64,000 nucleotides of DNA from Cavenderia fasciculata (lineage: Eukaryota; Evosea; Eumycetozoa; Acytosteliales; Cavenderiaceae), in contig NW_004457624.1 of assembly GCF_000203815.1 (NCBI RefSeq), positions 2,852,001-2,916,000 on the forward strand. Reading direction: 5' to 3'. Positions 273 through 39,589 of this stretch are shown piece after piece. Made by a program: the position numbers and the translations under genes. The notes under the pieces were generated by a model. It ran no database searches. It was not told the DNA's origin and was given only the letters and a program-made list of their open reading frames with translations. Position 1 is the first letter of the stretch. Each line of letters opens with the position of its first letter.

Positions 273-2044
273 ATGAATCCAAACGCATCTGTATTCGTAC
301 CAGGTATGAAGTTTGGCGCCAAGCCATCGGCTACTCCAGCCCCAGCCGCCACTGCTGCCACTCCAGCTGCTGCTGCCAACTCAACCCCAGTTGTTGAAGA
401 ACCAAAGGTTGTTGTACAAGAAGAGAAAAAGGTTGAAAAGAAGCCAGCACCAGTTGCAGCTGCACCAGTCGAGACTACTACCACCACCAGCACCACCAGC
501 ACCTCTGCCACTAGTCCAACTACAACCGTCACCTCACCAACCACTGATGACGATGTCGATGAATTGGGCAACAAGATTGATGACGTTGTCATTCAAGATG
601 TATCCAACTTTAAGGAGGATCAAAGAGAACATCTTAATATCGTATTCATTGGTCATGTCGGTAAGTAGATAAATATATAGATAGAAAAGTTATAGAAGAT
701 AAATATATCATATCAAATGATTTGATCTAACTTATTTCCTTTTCTTTTTCTTTAGATGCTGGTAAATCAACCATTTCAGGTAATATTATGTTGTTGACTG
801 GTCAAGTTGATTCACATACTATGGCCAAATATGAACGTGAAGCCAAGGAGAACCATCGTGAGAGTTGGATATTTGCATACATTATGGATACAAACGAAGA
901 GGAAAGAGCCAAAGGAAAGACCGTCGAAGTTGGACGTGCTCACTTTGAGACTGAAAAGAAGAGATACACCATTTTGGATGCACCAGGTCACAAGGCCTAC
1001 GTGCCCAATATGATTTCGGGTGCTGCCCAAGCCGACGTTGCCATCCTCGTCATCTCATCCAAAAAGGGTGAGTTTGAGGCTGGTGTCGATGGTGGTCAAA
1101 CCATCGAGCACGCCCGTCTAGCCAAGATGATTGGTATCAAGCATTTGATCGTTCTCGTCAACAAGATGGATGAGCCAACCGTTGCTTGGAGCAAGGAGCG
1201 TTACGACGACATTGTAGAAAAGATCACTGGTCACTTGAAAAAGTGCGGTTTCAACCCAAAGAAGGACTTCCAATTCATCCCAGCCTCTGGTTTCACCTCG
1301 GCCAACATCAAGGATCGTGTAAAGCCTGAAGTTTGTCCATGGTTTGATGGAGACTCGCTTATGGGTACCTTGGACGCCCTCGCACCATTTGAACGTAACG
1401 ACTCTGGTGCTTTGCGTGTACCCATCATCACCTCTTACAAGGATCGTGGTGTTGTCACTGTCATGGGCAAGATTGAATCTGGTACCATCACCCTCGGTCA
1501 ATCTCTCTGGTTGATGCCAGGTCGTACCCCAGTCCAAGTCGCCTCTCTCTCTAACGAAACCTGTAACTTTAGAACTGGTCGTACTGGTGAAAACCTCCGT
1601 ATCGGTCTCAAGGGTATCGATGAAGACACTATCCGTGCTGGTTCCATTCTCTCTGAAATCCAACGTCCGGTACCAGTCGTCTCTGAAATCGAAGCCATCG
1701 TTGCCCTCATCGATCTCCCCAAGGAAAAGCAATTGTTTACCTCCAACTTTGAAGCCGTGTTCCACGCCCACACTGCCGTCGAAGAATGTATCGTCAAGTC
1801 GTTGGTTGCTACCATCGACATGAAGACCGGTCAAGAAATCAAAAAGAAGCCAACCTTTGCCAAGAATGGTGAGTCTGTCAAGTGTCGTATCGTCCTTAAC
1901 CGTGCCGTCTGTTTAGAAGAGTTTACAACCAATCCACAGTTGTCTAGATTTACCCTACGTGATTCCAACAAAACTATGGCTTTTGGCAAGGTGACTTCCA
2001 TAGGAAAGAAGGCACGTGAAGCTATCAATTCCCCAAAGGCATAA
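273..2044 (+). CDS. erf3: Eukaryotic peptide chain release factor GTP-binding subunit eRF3 (Sup35/GSPT)
   Basis: The product is a translational GTPase that works with eRF1 to release the finished peptide at stop codons in the cytosol. Two exons, 273-660 and 756-2044, joined by a 95-bp intron (GTAAGT...TTTAG), give 558 residues. The intron splits the P-loop: GHV from exon 1 joins DAGKST from exon 2 (G127-T135). G3 is DAPGHK (about D204) and G4 is NKMD (about 265), followed by EF-Tu-like beta-barrel domains 2 and 3. Residues 1-110 form an Ala/Pro/Thr/Val-rich low-complexity N-domain with a poly-Thr/Ser segment; unlike yeast Sup35 it has no Gln/Asn prion-like repeats. Codon use in exon 2 is rich in C-ending codons, as expected for a highly expressed gene. 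The alternative family members eEF1A and HBS1 fit less well because of the extended N-domain and the domain 2/3 sequence. Degenerate copies of the 3' end lie just downstream. Confidence 0.93.
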
Positions 2045-2067
2045 ATTTAGAAATTAATAAATAATCA

Positions 2068-2540: not shown

Positions 2541-2762
2541 AGTGAGGTATCGGGCTCGACCCGTACAGTTGGTGCAGAATCTCCTTGGGATTCCCCTACC
2601 TTTGAGGGTGTTGCTTTGTTTACATCAACTTTTGCTGGTATGAAAAACAATCAAAAAAATAAAAACTCTATCCAAAATATTTTCTAACCAATCAATCAAT
2701 CTATTTTAGATAACAAAAAGGGTTATCCTCATTATGATCAACCTCAACAACCACTTTTATGA
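2541..2762 (+). pseudogene. Possible two-exon gene remnant of unknown family
   Basis: The stretch is unusually GC-rich for an intergenic region and carries an open frame (…EVSGSTRTVGAESP…) up to a consensus donor at 2638 (GTATGA). An acceptor TTTTAG at 2709 restores the same frame (…DNKKGYPHYDQPQQPLL, stop at 2760-2762). Frame continuity across the candidate 72-bp intron (2638-2709) supports past or present coding. There is no ATG in frame before an upstream stop, so it is probably the 3' remainder of a lost gene. I do not recognise the family. Confidence 0.3.
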
Positions 2763-3292
2763 TAAACATCTGTCCACATCATATCAACAATATGCCATGA
2801 ATATGATCGACAAGATCCCCGATTGAATTGTCCTGGCCAAGTCGTGCATAGGGCTATTCCAACTCATCTTTGAAATCTCAATGCACCAATACCCCCTTGA
2901 AATTTGATTGGATATTGTCCATTATTAGATTGAAGGTGACCACATAACATGTGGTAAATGATCACCCATTCAACATGTGTATGTATACCAAAAAAAATTA
3001 CTTTATTAATGTTAATCTTCATCATATCAGCCATGTTATGCTTCGATCGTTGTTGCTATTGAGTACTGCTCTGATCCAACGTTATTTAAAGCAGTACTCA
3101 ATATCAACAACCTTCGATTCATTGACTTCAGAGTACCATTTCTGCTTTTTAAGGAACTATGTAAAGACTCTCCCATGAGTACATCGTCGACCACACCCAT
3201 CCCAAAAAGTAAAGTAGGAGTATAGTATAAATATTTACAAAAAGGTTAGATAAATATGCATGTTTACAATAACAATATTTATTTATATTTAT
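2763..3292. other. Intergenic stretch with two hairpins
   Basis: This is the 3' side of the Dicer-like gene. No convincing gene is seen; the open frame around 2951-3178 has no coding character. It holds an imperfect hairpin at 2935-2966 (GGTGA CCACA ... TGTGG ... TCACC, with a 7-nt bulge) and the much stronger hairpin at 3044-3116, annotated separately. Confidence 0.5.
3044..3116. ncRNA. Candidate microRNA/siRNA precursor hairpin
   Basis: Positions 3049-3070 and 3090-3111 are inverted repeats of 22 nt with 21 matches (the only mismatch is 3056 against 3104), separated by a 19-nt loop. Pairing continues outward to 3044-3116 with two further mismatches. A 22-bp near-perfect stem with a short loop is the size and shape of a Dicer substrate. 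It lies about 180 bp past the stop codon of the Dicer-like gene on the opposite strand. Either strand could be the transcript; no promoter or terminator decides this. Alternatives are a transcription-termination hairpin or a chance or transposon-derived inverted repeat. Confidence 0.4.
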
Positions 3293-6200
3293 TTATATTG
3301 TCATTTCTTTTTGTTCTTCTTCAACATTTAATATTACTTGTTGTTGTTGTTGAACTTGTTCATCTTGTTTATCTTGAACATCAACATCCATTATACTTGT
3401 ACTGGTAACAGTCATGGGAGGAGTGGTAGATCCTTGATTAATTGTTATAGGAGGAGTAATAACTGGTGGAGAGGACAAGGTGGAAGAGGATGAAGATTCT
3501 GGAGAAATTGAAACTGCAGAAGAGATTGGTGAATTATTTAAATAAATACCATTACGTTGTTTTTTGGGAGGAATGGTTGATGCAATGGGTTGGTTATCGA
3601 GCATTTGATCGATACGAACTGGTAATACTTCGGAATCTGGTATCATTTCAGTTGAATTGTGTGGGACAGGTCTTGAACTGGCATAATGAGCCTCTAAAAT
3701 CTCTACGACATAATCCTTGTTTAGATTAAGTAGACGGTAGATAAGTTTCTTGGTATCTTCCAATTCATTGTCCAACAATACACCTCCAATGAATGCTTCA
3801 AATAGATCACCAAGTCTCTTGGTACTAAAGGTGGCACTTGGATCGGTTACCAATTGGTAGAGTTTGATTCTTTGACTAATTTGAGCCAATGCTTCATTTC
3901 TAACCAAAAGTGCTCTTGCTTGTGACAAGAAACCTTCATTCTCTAGTGGGAATTCACGATACAAGAAATGTGATACAATACCATCCAAATAGGAATCACC
4001 CAAAAACTCTAATCTTTGATAAGAATAATTTTGATCTCCCAAACATGTAATTGCATCCTCTAATAAACATACTTTACTAATCTTTACTTGAACATCAAAT
4101 AAAAATTTTGATTGTATTGATGCTATAAATAAAAAATAAAAGGTAATTAGTTATATATTTATAAATATTTCTTTTTTTTTTTAATTTTCTTTTTACATAC
4201 ATAATTGTCTTTCAAAAGAATGATTACATTTAAAAGTTGGTAAAGTTGAATATTGATGATCATTGTAAACGGTATGAACGATAAAACGATAGACTTCTTT
4301 AAATCCTCTTTCTAAAAAGATTGCACCAAACATTGCTTCCATGACATCGGCCTTTGGTTTTTTAATATCTTCAGTGCTAGAGTAACGAAGTAATTCAATG
4401 ATACCCCATTCATTACACTTTTCGAGTAGATAAGTGTTGTTGGTCAATTCACTTCTTCTGGTTGTCAACTCTCCTTCGTTGGCTTTGGGATACTTGAAAA
4501 AGAGATAGATGGATGCACAAAACTTGAGGATAGAGTCACCGAGAAACTCTAGACGTTGATTGTCAGTGGTAAAGGGGAGTAGATCCTTGAATAGTTTGTA
4601 TTCGGCTGGGTTGAGTGAATTGATCTTTTTACTCGATGGATGAGTAAAGATTTCACGCAACAAAAGATCGTTTTCAAAGCTGATAATGTTTGATTGGAAT
4701 TGATCTACCTTTTTCCACCACTTTAACTCTGGAATGTAGACGAGAATGGCTACCTTGGCCATTGCATGCATTTCACTAGTAATACCAAGTACCTTGCAAA
4801 TCAATGGATCCTTGGCATACAATTTACTCTTTCTAATAAAGTTTTCAAATTCTATCTTTTTTTCGTGATTATCATCTTTGCCAGATCCATTTTCACCACC
4901 ACCGCCACCAGCGCTATTGAGTAATGGTGATTGATTGAGAATATCGATATTCCAACGATGAATGTCTTCACGGAGACCGTCTTTGGTGAAAAATAAGAGT
5001 GGTTTGAGTGCCCAATAGTCGCGGGCCAACGATGCAGTGGCGTGTGTACAGAGGAGTGTTGGACAGATACCGCTCTTTAGTTCGAGCACCTTTCCTTCCA
5101 TATCAGAGACGGCGTAGCCCGAGTTGTGGTTATATACAAATTTTTTGGTATTGTCAATCTCGCGACAAATGGTAAAGTCACCACGTGGCGACAGTAGAAG
5201 CTTGCGCAAATACTTTTTCTCAAAGTATTGACGAAACTCCTTTTCCGAGACATCTGCTCCCGAGACGCTCTCGGGCAGATCAGTGAGGATATCTTCAAAT
5301 GTGAGTAGATCCATGAGCGTCTGGAAGTTGCTGCGCAGTGGGTCGGTCAGACACTTGAGCTCTGGCACGAAAAACAGTTCCTGTGGGTTATTGTACTCGA
5401 GATAGGTCTGCGACAACACCTTGCCATAGAAAAAGTTGTTAAATGTCAACATCTTTTGAAAGTCGTCGCGCGAGACTGTGACATGCTCGGCTTCGACGAT
5501 CGACATGCCAAAGTGCTGTCCTCCAGCATTGGCAATATGAATGACGGGTGTATGTTGCATCTCTGTAGTGTACAAGATGAACCCCTTGAACAAATACTCG
5601 CGTCCAAGATGTGAATACGACTTTGGCTTGAATCCGTGTGAAAAGACAACACGGTACGTGTAAAAGTCGATCGTGTCGGGTGTCGTGTCTGGCAACTTGA
5701 CGTGCTGTGCGTGTGAGAGGTGTTGTTCTTCATGGCCGAGTCGGATGGTTGGGATCTCGACCAACTCGGACATGGAGAATGTCTGGTTGGGTGATCTCTC
5801 AGACTTGCGCGACTTTCGTTGTGTCTTGATCTTGTTGTCAATATACTCTTTGAGATCGGTGTATCTTCGCTCGAGTGTAGCAATCTTTTCGGTAAAGTGC
5901 TTGGTAGATGCTTCAAACGCCATTCTTAGTTGTAGTAACTCTGTTCCAGACGATTGAGTACTACTCATCATTGATGATGACGACGATGACGATGGAGCGT
6001 CCCAGTCTCTAGGTTGGTGTTCTCTATCACGATGTTCTCTGTCTCGATGCTCGCGGTCGCGTTCTCTTTCACGGTCTCGGTCACCTCTGTCGCGTTCACG
6101 CTCTCTGTGTTCTCGGTCTCTTTCTCTTTCCCTGTCGCGGTCTCTCTCTGAGCTGCCACTCCCTCCGCCGCCGCCACCTCCTCCACTTCCACCACCACTT

Positions 6201-6502
6201 CCACCACCACCGCCACCAGCACCACTCGTACCCATACGAGCCACTTCGGCAGCTAGATCGGGGAATCTTGTAAAGATGTGTTGCAGTGTGCTAAAGGCAG
6301 AGTTCTTCTCGGCCTCCTTCTTTGTCTTTCCCTTGCCGCTGTTGACAAACGAGACACCCTTCATCGAGCACTTTACCTCGGACGTGAACAGATTCTGGCC
6401 GCCTTCATAGTGTTGCACACTCTCAGAGTAGATGGGTACCGGCTCCTTTGTCTTTTGACAAAGCTCTTGTAACACTCCCTTATAATTCTCTTGTGATGAC
6501 AT
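3293..6502 (-). CDS. Dicer-like double RNase III protein with N-terminal dsRBD (DrnA/DrnB type)
   Basis: The product should cleave double-stranded or hairpin RNA into small RNAs. Exons 6502-4201 and 4122-3293 (78-bp intron, GTATGT...TATAG) give 1043 residues. Residues about 5-75 form a dsRNA-binding domain; about 95-165 are Gly-rich then Arg/Asp/Glu-rich; 185-215 is probably coiled coil; 260-500 is a platform/PAZ-like region. The first RNase III domain has the signature NQRLEFLGDS (from N648) and DVMEAMFGAIF. The second has YQRLEFLGDS (about 800) and LGDLFEAFIGG, so the acidic catalytic residues are present in both. There is no DEAD helicase, which matches the known dictyostelid Dicers. The splice join falls between the two RNase III domains. 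The C-terminal 120 residues are Ser/Thr/Gln-rich. Whether it is the DrnA or the DrnB orthologue cannot be decided here. Confidence 0.9.
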
Positions 6503-8109
6503 AGTAGTAGTAGTAGTAGTAGTAGTAGCAGTAGCAGTAGCAGTAGTAGTAGTTATATGTATCTATGTGTATGTAAGTATGTATGTTGTACTGTTGTTTG
6601 TTATATGTTATATGTCTAATAGCAATCAACGTCACAAAAAACAATACTTGTACACCCAACAACAACAACAACAACAACAACTCTTCTCTCCAATCAACTA
6701 TCTATCTAAAAACTGTACTATGATATGAATAGAGATACAAATAATATATACAAATATAAATATAGAAAGATAAGTATGCAAGATGAATGAATGCGATGAG
6801 ATGTAAGACCTGTTCTCTAAAAACTGTAATTTCGCCTTTTGGAAGAATCGGAGGTTCCACTCACTTCTACTTTTTTTTCTTTTTTTTGTATTTTTTTTTT
6901 TGAATCAAGTGTTATTGAAGAGAGTACTAACGGTTTGTTTGAATAATCAATAGTTATCCAAAATAGTAAATCCTATCTTATCTTGTACCTATCATATCAA
7001 TCAATCAAATCAATCTATCAATCACAATCTCATATATCACTGTTGACATAGAATATAAACCGAGTACCATTCTTTATTCCCACCACATCATCCTCCTCTT
7101 CCTCATCCTTTTCTCCCTTGCATCACCACCCAACCAATACCAATTCCAATACCAATCGATTCATATTACTCAAAGAAGAAGAGAATACATACATACATAC
7201 ATACATTACATACACATACATTGATAAATCAAATCGATTAATAATAATAATACTAAAAGAAGAAGAAGAAAAATATATTAATAATGATAACTCATGTGAT
7301 GTGATCAACAAACAATGAAGAGCGGTTTAATGACGATATTTATATATATAATATTCAAGCGATAGGTTGGCGATACTAGACAAAGGAATCACAGTTACAA
7401 CGAACATTATATATCTTTGTTTCTTCATCATCATCATCATCCAAAAGGAATCACAGTTACAACGAACATTATATATCTTTGTTTCTTCATAATCATCATC
7501 ATCCAAAAGAAAGACCAATATTATTTTTAGAGAAGAAATGGAGAAGGATGATAATATTATATCGATATTCATAGCAACCATATGATATACCATTATCATA
7601 TCTTCAATTATATAATTAATTTATTAATAATCCTGATGATTGATTTGTGGCTTTGATCATAATGTTGGAGGATGACCATCATTCATTCATTGGCACGCGC
7701 GTGAAAGGAGGAAGAGTTGGGTGGTGGAATTTGATGATAAGTTTATTATTTTTTTTTTTTTATCCACACAAAAAAAGAAGCGCTCAACAGCCACAAAAAA
7801 TCTATTTTTTTTTTATCATATCATCAATTTTTGCTATCCATCAAATCACCATCCACTCTCAACCTAACCTGACCATCATCATCATCATCTTATTTCTACC
7901 GAAGCAACAACCTATTTATATTACCTTTTTTGTACAATATACTTACCTACGACTCTCTTTACTACTACCTCTTTATTTTGCTAGATTTATTTTTATATTT
8001 AAAAAAAAAAAGAAAGAAACAAAAGAAGGAAGATAACGACTATTACATAACAACAGACAACAAAGATAGATTATATATATAACTAGACTAGACATACATA
8101 CATACAACA
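6503..8109. promoter_or_regulatory. Long divergent intergenic region between the Dicer-like and PP6R genes
   Basis: No gene is supported. The region holds an (AGT)n microsatellite at 6503-6560 directly upstream of the Dicer ATG, long T-runs (6868-6900, 7748-7760, 7801-7812), CATA repeats at 7185-7215, a 62-bp tandem duplication at 7382-7505, and an A-run at 8000-8012. Promoters for both flanking genes must lie here. Confidence 0.45.
7382..7505. repeat. 62-bp tandem duplication
   Basis: Positions 7382-7443 and 7444-7505 are near-identical head-to-tail copies with a period of 62. Each contains ggaatcacagttacaacg, cattatatatctttg and a trailing (ATC)n. The copies differ mainly at one base in the ATC run. 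No open reading frame depends on it. Confidence 0.85.
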
Positions 8110-36886: not shown

Positions 36887-36996
36887 ACGATTGGCTAGCC
36901 GCCCACCGTTCGTTGGACTCTTATGAATATAGGAATAACATCCGCCCCTGGAATAGGATTTTATCTTTTTTCATATGTTGTATAAACATTACAAAA

Positions 36997-37012
36997 GGCT
37001 TTTTTCAAAGCC
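36997..37012 (+). promoter_or_regulatory. Histone mRNA 3' stem-loop (SLBP site)
   Basis: GGCTTTTTTCAAAGCC forms a 6-bp stem with a 4-nt TTTC loop, flanked by acaaaa upstream and accca downstream. This matches the histone 3' stem-loop consensus (GGYYYUHUHARRRCC with A-rich 5' flank and ACCCA 3'). It lies 110 bp past the H2A.X stop on the sense strand. An A/G-rich caaaagaa (37029-37038) sits where a histone downstream element would be. The reader protein SLBP is encoded at 47.6-48.9 kb. Confidence 0.9.
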
Positions 37013-39589
37013 ACCCAAATTCAAATTAATCAAAAGAATTTTTATTATCAATTCAATCCTATCTTTTACTTCTCTCTCTCTTTTGCACATATTTTATTCA
37101 ATTAATTATTAATTTATTATTTCTATCCTCCTTCCCTTCTTTTATTTATTCCAAATTTAGATTTATTGTAAAACAAATTAAATTAATAAAACACAATCAA
37201 CAAACTATAATAATGTTAGTTGAAGAATTATTATTATAAATTAAATCTTTTTTTAAATTGTATTATAATTATAATTTTAGAGTTTATTCTTTCCATCCAT
37301 AGCATCACTATCGAACAATCATGATAGTGTTGAGATATATAATATAGGCAAGATCGATTCCCCAAGTTGGAAAGTTCAAATAATAATCATTTAATGGTAG
37401 CGGGGGTATAGCTATTAGTTAGTGTGTGTGTGGTTTGTTTTCTGGTAATTGCCATAATTGGATCAATGAGTTCTATTCATCATAATGTTATGTTTGTTGT
37501 TTTATTAGTAATTATATCGACCCTAAACAATCATATGAGTCGGTTAAGGTGAGATGGAATGGATGGAATCTTAGTTTCAGACTGGGAATTAATAATAACC
37601 TCTTCCTACTCTTTCTTTTTCAGAGCTGTGATGGAATGATAAGAATATCCAACTTGGTAAACCAAGCTAGCGGTACTAACCACCCACGAATAAAACCATT
37701 TCTTCCTTAATATTAAAACATTCCATTGTTGATAATCATCATAGTTTTAGTTCTAAATTTATAAAATAGTATTCATTAATTAATTGGTACATAGTCATCC
37801 CAAACAATTCTATTTTTAATTTTTAATATTTTTTGTTTTGGATTCATTATTTTTCAATATTTCCAACTAGACCAGACTCTAGATGAATAGTATATTCAAT
37901 TTAATAATATCATTTAAGCATAATAATAGCAATAGTAATAGTAATCGAGAATAGTATTTATCTATTATCTCCATCATCTCTTGTTTGTTTTTTTTTAAAA
38001 GTAAAACCGGAAACACGGATATTTATTCATTCATTTACAATAGTTAGTAGTTTAAGATTAAGATTTAGAGAGAGAGAGAAACCGAGATCAATAATAGGAT
38101 TGTACTAGTAATAATTTCAAAACACCACCACAGATATTTATCAAAATAGAACATACAACTGTTCTTTTTTTCAAAATAAATGTAAGTTTACAACTACAAA
38201 CAAACAAATATATCTCACCCTCTTTTTTTTTTTTTCCCAATAGTAGTAGTTCATTTCATTCCACAATGTGGAAATTTCCATTTTACCCAACATACCCACC
38301 CTATTTTGGATTGTTGTATTTTCAAATGATAGATTAACGATTTGTTATTCTTACATGTCTTCCCTTCATTTCACAACAAAAAAAAAAAAGAAAAAAGAGT
38401 TGATTTCAAAAACAGTCGTTGTATCCGGGAAATTAAATGACACTATATCTACTCACCCCTTCACCAACAACACCTACCAGCTCACTTTAATTGGGTACCC
38501 AGATATATTGACTGGGTATCTACTCATTCGAAAATCGAGTTTAAAATCCACACACTAACTATTCTCTCAACTGTGTGTTGTGTTCATCAATTGTTAAATA
38601 TATAATTGCCATAATAGTCAACTATATTGATGATGTCTATCCCTATCCATTTCCATATACATATATGATTTAAATAAATTATTTTATATTTTGTCACTAT
38701 TATATCATCGTTCGTCAGTTTGTCTGTCATCGGTCACAGTCAATTTTGAATTCAATCTCAAGGAGATATCTATTCTATTTAATTATATATCTCTACCTTT
38801 TATTTTTTAAATCCATTCAATATACCCTACCCCATACTATGTCAATATAGACTGGGTCAATACATTTTTAAATTATATATATTTCCGCGTTTAATCTTTT
38901 GAATCTTTTTTACAACCAAGCTAGAGAGTGGTTTTGTGTTGTTCTGCAAAATCCCATCAACAATCTCTATAGCAATCTGTTGGCTACTTACTCCAACACA
39001 CAACCTTCCCTCCACACACTCACACATACTCATCCCCAGCCCGTATGTCTTGGCGCCCAGATTGTTTTTAATCATCTCTTCAGTTCAACAACACTCGAGT
39101 ACAACATTCATACATAAATCTAAATTTACCACTCCAATTTAATTAAGTTTTCCACCTTTTTGCTAGTAGTAGTAAAAGTAAAAGTAGTAGTCACTACACT
39201 CAACTACCTACCACCTAAACCACAAGTGTATAGTCGTATTCCACAAATTTCCTGTTGTTCATTTTACTCTTTTTCAACATATAAATTCAATTTCAATTTG
39301 AATCAAATTTCAAAATATATCATTTCAATTTATTTATTTATCCTTTTTTCATTTTTTATTTAAACTATATAACTTTTTATATTTTTCTCTAAACCAAACA
39401 AAACAAAAAACTTTTTTGATTTCTTTAATAATAACTAAAAAACCAAATGATTTATAGTAAAAAGAATTGGATAAGAAATACTAATCATTTTCATATCCCC
39501 TAATAATAATAACAATAACTAAAAAGAATAATTTTATATAAACAAGATATACAACATTTATCATTTTAAAAAGAAAGATTTCAAAAAAA
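37013..39589. other. Long gene-free region before the F-box/WD40 gene
   Basis: 2.6 kb with no supported coding gene. The interval 37290-37690 has markedly higher GC and stop-rich frames, with a hairpin CTTGGT-aa-ACCAAG at about 37655-37668; it may be an unannotated non-coding transcript. Further on are T-runs (37990, 38222-38235), a GT/AC-rich stretch at 38940-39120 (cacacactcacacatactc), and an AT-rich, A-ending leader before 39590. Open frames at 38268-38558 and 38857-39142 look random. Confidence 0.4.

Follow-up and report, generated by a model that had tools for sequence, protein, structure and literature searches.

In the openly accessible text of Edelbroek and co-workers, microRNAs (miRNAs) are reported from six of six dictyostelids, D. 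fasciculatum included, where they derive mostly from single intergenic loci, often begin with a 5' U, are less AT-rich than intergenic DNA and arise from precursors that are most often 75-125 nt long (PMC11014262). The amoebozoan set described there stands at 61; miRNA turnover in these amoebae is fast, and a hairpin of unusual length whose duplex has zero or one mismatch is given as a mark of a young miRNA (PMC11014262). For D. discoideum, the criteria set out in the accessible part of the paper by Liao and co-workers are a folding energy below -0.2 kcal/mol/nt and a duplex that is at least 60% paired, in addition to reads from both arms, 2-nt 3' overhangs, fixed 5' ends and loss in a Dicer (drnB) mutant (PMC6161686). 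A T-rich tract lies before the transcription start of 14 D. discoideum pri-miRNAs, as a usual mark and not a criterion, and such tracts precede starts located 116 and 281 nt upstream (PMC6161686). The Class I RNAs are short RNAs whose build, as far as the accessible text describes it, differs from that of the hairpin considered here (PMC7919456). Outside the amoebae, precedents for Dicer self-control are given by miR838 and miR162 of DCL1 (PMC12825306) and by the cutting of hairpins of the Dgcr8 mRNA by Drosha (PMC3814725).

The window analysed here, meaning the whole 64-kb stretch of Cavenderia fasciculata DNA, contains a stem-loop that resembles dictyostelid miRNAs such as ddi-mir-1176 and ddi-mir-1177 in being a single-copy intergenic structure with a well-paired duplex of about 21 nt. 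Furthermore, its arms are less AT-rich than their surroundings (39% GC, against 33% in the gap around the hairpin), and in the register assumed below the 5p product would start with U on either strand. It differs from the described dictyostelid miRNAs in its shorter precursor (63 nt from 5p start to 3p end in the assumed register, against 75-125 nt), which we count against the miRNA reading, in standing without a long T-tract nearby and in being known here from sequence alone. Set against the mark of a young miRNA, the hairpin has one mismatch, yet it is not long. We regard a single-copy intergenic dictyostelid miRNA gene as the likeliest reading of the locus, and hold it with somewhat more belief than doubt.

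A hairpin between convergent genes

The hairpin comprises the following parts, with positions numbered along the window:

3038 to 3122, no strand assigned: entire stem-loop, made up of 3 bp, a 2x2 internal loop, 4 bp, a 2x2 internal loop and the 22-nt block, as read from folding at 22 C and from a pairing profile centred on 3080
3049 to 3070, no strand assigned: left 22-nt arm, forming 21/22 Watson-Crick pairs with 3090-3111
3071 to 3089, no strand assigned: 19-nt loop between the two arms
3090 to 3111, no strand assigned: right 22-nt arm, forming 21/22 Watson-Crick pairs with 3049-3070

Recomputation returned the 22-nt arms, their 21 pairs, the 19-nt loop and the coordinates just as the original prediction had given them. 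The pairing holds on either strand, position 3056/3104 is the sole mismatch of the 22-nt block, and the block is free of G:U pairs. Strict pairs occupy 21 of 22 positions in the block; the loop has 3 of 9, and the looser lower stem is interrupted by 2x2 loops. Flanked in this way by weaker pairing on both sides, the near-perfect part has the length of one Dicer product.

At 37 C, the segment 3044-3116 has a folding energy of -33.2 kcal/mol on the plus strand and -34.1 kcal/mol on the minus strand, with z scores of -9.5 and -7.7, respectively, and none of 200 shuffles was equally stable on either strand. At 22 C, the energy of the hairpin is -43.4 kcal/mol; the 22 pairs have a mean probability of 0.95 per strand, and likewise inside 491 nt of context at this temperature.

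The rarity of such a structure was assessed in 264 kb of contiguous sequence from the same genome (the 64-kb window and 200 kb beside it), a sample of less than 1% of the genome. We counted clusters of hairpins with at least 19/22 pairs and loops of 4-60, and applied a complexity filter set in this analysis, whereby an arm must reach 25% GC and contain 13 or more different trinucleotides. Eleven clusters were found: nine with 19 pairs, one with 20 and one, the 3044-3116 hairpin, with 21. The filter was passed by two of the 11, namely the present hairpin and one with 19 pairs, leaving the former as the only filter-passing hairpin with at least 20/22 pairs in the 264 kb. Twenty order-3 Markov simulations of the 264 kb yielded no cluster with at least 20 pairs and six with 19, three of which passed the filter. 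The hairpin is thus far from chance by its rarity in the 264 kb and by simulation, and the pre-miRNA-like shape originally claimed for it is confirmed. When 32,991 segments of 80 nt from the same 264 kb were folded, folds at least as good numbered two on the plus strand and five on the minus strand, in four clusters that include the hairpin itself; the other equally stable clusters have 54-66% GC, against 39% for the hairpin, which is the most stable low-GC 80-mer of the sample. The weaker filter-passing hairpin lies at C21:2743787, about 108 kb to the left of the window, and has 19/22 pairs, a 28-nt loop and 41% GC.

Searches of the organism's own genome (31 Mb in 21 contigs), at the DNA level and with patterns allowing up to three mismatches, found one hairpin locus, apart from the match of each arm to its own opposite arm, the repeat counts being lower bounds. 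A second copy of the whole intergenic gap was likewise not found in this genome. With one copy found, an element with many close copies is unlikely, and a MITE or other repeated inverted repeat was rejected as an explanation. No Rfam family matched 3044-3116 at its gathering score. Below that threshold, the hairpin drew four miRNA models only, which scored 16.2-22.3 bits where their gathering thresholds are 53-100; we take such weak matches as typical of any good stem, and rejected membership of a known RNA family. Elsewhere in the window, positions 36992-37036 on the plus strand match Rfam RF00032, the Histone 3' UTR stem-loop, with 37.7 bits (gathering score 34); this amoeba may therefore have histone mRNAs with ends of the replication type.

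The hairpin sits in a 1.2-kb gap that separates two convergent genes, encoding a GTPase (plus strand) and a Dicer-like protein (minus strand):

731 to 2044, plus strand: open frame covering most of a translation-factor GTPase gene, convergent with the Dicer-like gene
2638 to 2709, plus strand: intron-like stretch GTATGA...TTTTAG within the 1.2-kb gap
3278 to 3293, minus strand: two AATAAA words, probably a poly(A) signal, overlapping or just past the Dicer stop
3293 to 6562, minus strand: Dicer-like gene in two open frames with an intron inferred between them, the exon ends and start codon being provisional

By its sequence, the GTPase is probably eRF3-like. The end of its gene (1978-2048, plus strand), stop included, is followed at 2070-2128 by a shortened copy of about 58 nt, seen by eye as a short tandem duplication. 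Within the gap, exon-like pieces are apparent in 2547-2762 (plus strand), the first with 49% GC and the second with 32%. The peptide read from the two pieces, across the intron-like stretch, matched nothing in Pfam, and the organism's own genome yielded no further copy of it; on these grounds a protein-coding origin of the gap was rejected. This stretch is possibly a gene remnant or a piece of a spliced non-coding transcript. A 67-codon ATG frame beginning at 2975 (plus strand) runs across the hairpin and is too short to weigh.

The microRNA reading and its proposed mechanism

For the reading of the locus as a miRNA gene, we assumed that the product is 21 nt long and has 2-nt 3' overhangs, a register in which the hairpin would yield the following:

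3050 to 3070, plus strand: postulated 21-nt 5p RNA, beginning with U
3092 to 3112, plus strand: postulated 21-nt 3p partner
3090 to 3110, minus strand: postulated 5p RNA, beginning with U

In the mechanism that we infer, an RNA from the gap between the convergent genes, a Pol II transcript of either strand, would fold into the stem-loop, from which one of the two Dicer-like proteins described below would excise a duplex of about 21 nt. One arm, more likely the 5p arm with its initial U and weaker end, would enter Argonaute and, once loaded, would silence mRNAs elsewhere. Strand choice by the weaker duplex end is a rule from animals; by this rule, the end asymmetry on the plus strand (-0.5 versus -2.4 kcal/mol, computed for the five pairs at each end with one common artificial loop as closure) favours the 5p arm. 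As the transcribed strand, neither plus nor minus is preferred.

Measured by the D. discoideum criteria in the accessible text of PMC6161686, the hairpin has an energy of -0.455 kcal/mol/nt against the threshold of -0.2, and 95% of its duplex (21/22) is paired against the threshold of 60%. Two distances may count against the miRNA reading: the nearest upstream run of at least six T is one of 7 T at 2487 on the plus strand, about 560 nt away, and one of 6 T at 4131 on the minus strand, about 1 kb away. The arm sequences were absent from the text of the open papers to which the search extended; the locus may already be in the published dictyostelid miRNA list.

The neighbouring Dicer-like gene and rival explanations

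The claim that the hairpin has a Dicer-like neighbour was borne out by Pfam. The open frame 4193-6562 (minus strand) encodes a dsRNA-binding domain (Pfam dsrm) and a first RNase III domain, and the open frame 3293-4150 (minus strand) encodes a second RNase III domain. Each RNase III domain contains the motif RLEFLGD; the pattern used for the second catalytic motif matched the first domain only, and DLFEA is recognizable by eye in the second. Against solved structures, the first open frame scored best with Drosha chains, followed by bacterial RNase III enzymes and Dicers. The genome also holds a second Dicer-like gene, on C8 (L036 1137-4525), which shows 52% identity over the portion with the second RNase III domain. 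About 90 nt after this second gene, the next open frame starts on the same strand. In the 9 kb around it we found no comparable hairpin, only three weak ones with 16, 16 and 18 of 20 pairs, the last of low complexity.

The hairpin lies about 180 nt past the stop codon of the neighbouring Dicer-like gene (3293-3295, minus strand), in agreement with the spacing of some 180 bp first put forward, and the AATAAA words at the gene's end lie about 160 nt before it. After long open frames in the 264 kb, some of which may end in introns, AATAAA occurs within the first 60 nt in 20 of 70 cases and within the next 60 in nine of 70, falling to two, three and five of 70 in the three 60-nt intervals that follow. 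Given AATAAA at the Dicer stop and this positional enrichment, we expect the Dicer mRNA to stop well short of the hairpin, its end being set by the probable poly(A) signals. The locus is like miR838 of Arabidopsis, which resides in DCL1 (intron 14), in that a miRNA-type hairpin lies near a Dicer gene; unlike miR838, which is inside the DCL1 pre-mRNA, the amoeba hairpin falls beyond the point where the Dicer mRNA probably ends. With the Dgcr8 mRNA hairpins cut by Drosha it shares the idea of an RNase III complex that regulates its own genes via a stem-loop, but those hairpins stand at the 5' end of the mRNA, whereas this one is beyond the probable end of the Dicer transcript.

Four candidate small RNAs were scanned against the neighbouring Dicer gene (3231-6562, minus strand), with 40 shuffles each. 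None of the four had a 7-mer seed site in this region, and their best sites were equalled by 4, 35, 10 and 19 of 40 shuffles, the lowest penalty being 7.5 (the case equalled by 4/40). A single result points in the opposite direction, towards a link with Dicer: the second Dicer gene carries six seed sites across the four candidates, and here the best site of the plus-strand 3p candidate, with a penalty of 8.0, was matched by one of 40 shuffles; as one of 12 such tests, and with so poor a penalty, it is probably due to chance. The suggestion that a small RNA from the locus feeds back on Dicer is therefore unsupported, the neighbouring Dicer gene having neither seed sites nor good complementary sites. 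Its companion suggestion, that the hairpin belongs to an extended Dicer 3' UTR, fares no better, with AATAAA preceding the hairpin and the second Dicer gene having no such hairpin. A literature search found no report of Dicer auto-regulation in Dictyostelium. Control of Dicer by the hairpin is a reasonable idea given the precedents, but an unsupported one, and the position beside the Dicer gene is most likely a coincidence.

These results weigh against the proposal of a self-limiting switch, in which read-through would lengthen the 3' UTR of the Dicer transcript to include the hairpin, where Dicer would then cut its own mRNA. The hairpin does fold on the Dicer strand too, some 180 nt past the stop, and the accessible accounts of DCL1/pre-miR838 (PMC12825306) and of Drosha and the Dgcr8 mRNA (PMC3814725) are precedents for such a device; with AATAAA at and just past the Dicer stop, and a second Dicer gene that does without the hairpin, we nevertheless hold it to be highly improbable. 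The same scant credence attaches to its furthest extension, whereby cleavage of the read-through transcript by the very Dicer it encodes would set the Dicer level and produce the miRNA in one event, as an independently evolved amoebozoan counterpart of DCL1-miR838 and Drosha-Dgcr8. A structural element at the convergent gene ends, acting in transcript ending or 3'-end shielding as an RNA stem-loop or a DNA cruciform, would fit a hairpin that lies between convergent genes and folds on both strands. The gene ends, however, are about 1 kb and 180 nt away, with the hairpin past the AATAAA words of both, the second Dicer gene has nothing comparable, and the 264 kb hold one weaker filter-passing hairpin (19/22); such a role appears improbable.

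A recent inverted duplication, arising for example by replication template switching and left untranscribed or unprocessed, would make the hairpin a fossil or a functionless proto-miRNA. The near-identical arms, the want of G:U pairs in the 22-nt block and some residual pairing outside it are consistent with this origin, as are the single copy found and the lack of any promoter sign near the hairpin. The rapid turnover of miRNAs in these amoebae points the same way, as does, in the accessible text, the D. firmibasis locus orthologous to ddi-mir-1179, which can fold although the miRNA is specific to D. discoideum (PMC11014262). Conversely, a length of 22 with sharp edges suits a Dicer product, and hairpins of this kind are rare, the 264 kb containing one, the hairpin itself. 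We consider a duplication of this sort possible but unlikely, and retain the miRNA gene as the preferred reading.

Possible targets and implications

For the miRNA gene, possible targets were sought elsewhere in the genome at up to three mismatches. The plus-strand 5p candidate had no off-locus match, the plus-strand 3p candidate had five and the minus-strand 5p candidate three, which, with one place in common, amounts to seven places; reversed-pattern controls gave 1, 0 and 1 matches. For the minus-strand 5p candidate, which has the best-scoring sites in long open frames, the penalty is 3.0 in L009 (a 432-codon open frame, the site lying in a CAA-repeat coding stretch), 3.5 in L040 (a 516-codon open frame) and 4.5 in L008 (a 326-codon open frame, Hsp60-like by eye), all computed at pattern-found places only and hence no measure of excess over chance. 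Penalties of 3.0-4.5 are within the range permitted by plant-type rules. The sites in L009, L040 and L008 are candidate targets, offered as leads only.

If the hairpin is processed, it would add, or place, one miRNA in a lineage in which few are known and turnover is fast. Its adjacency to a Dicer gene, furthermore, makes it simple to test whether Dicer controls itself in a lineage other than animals and plants.
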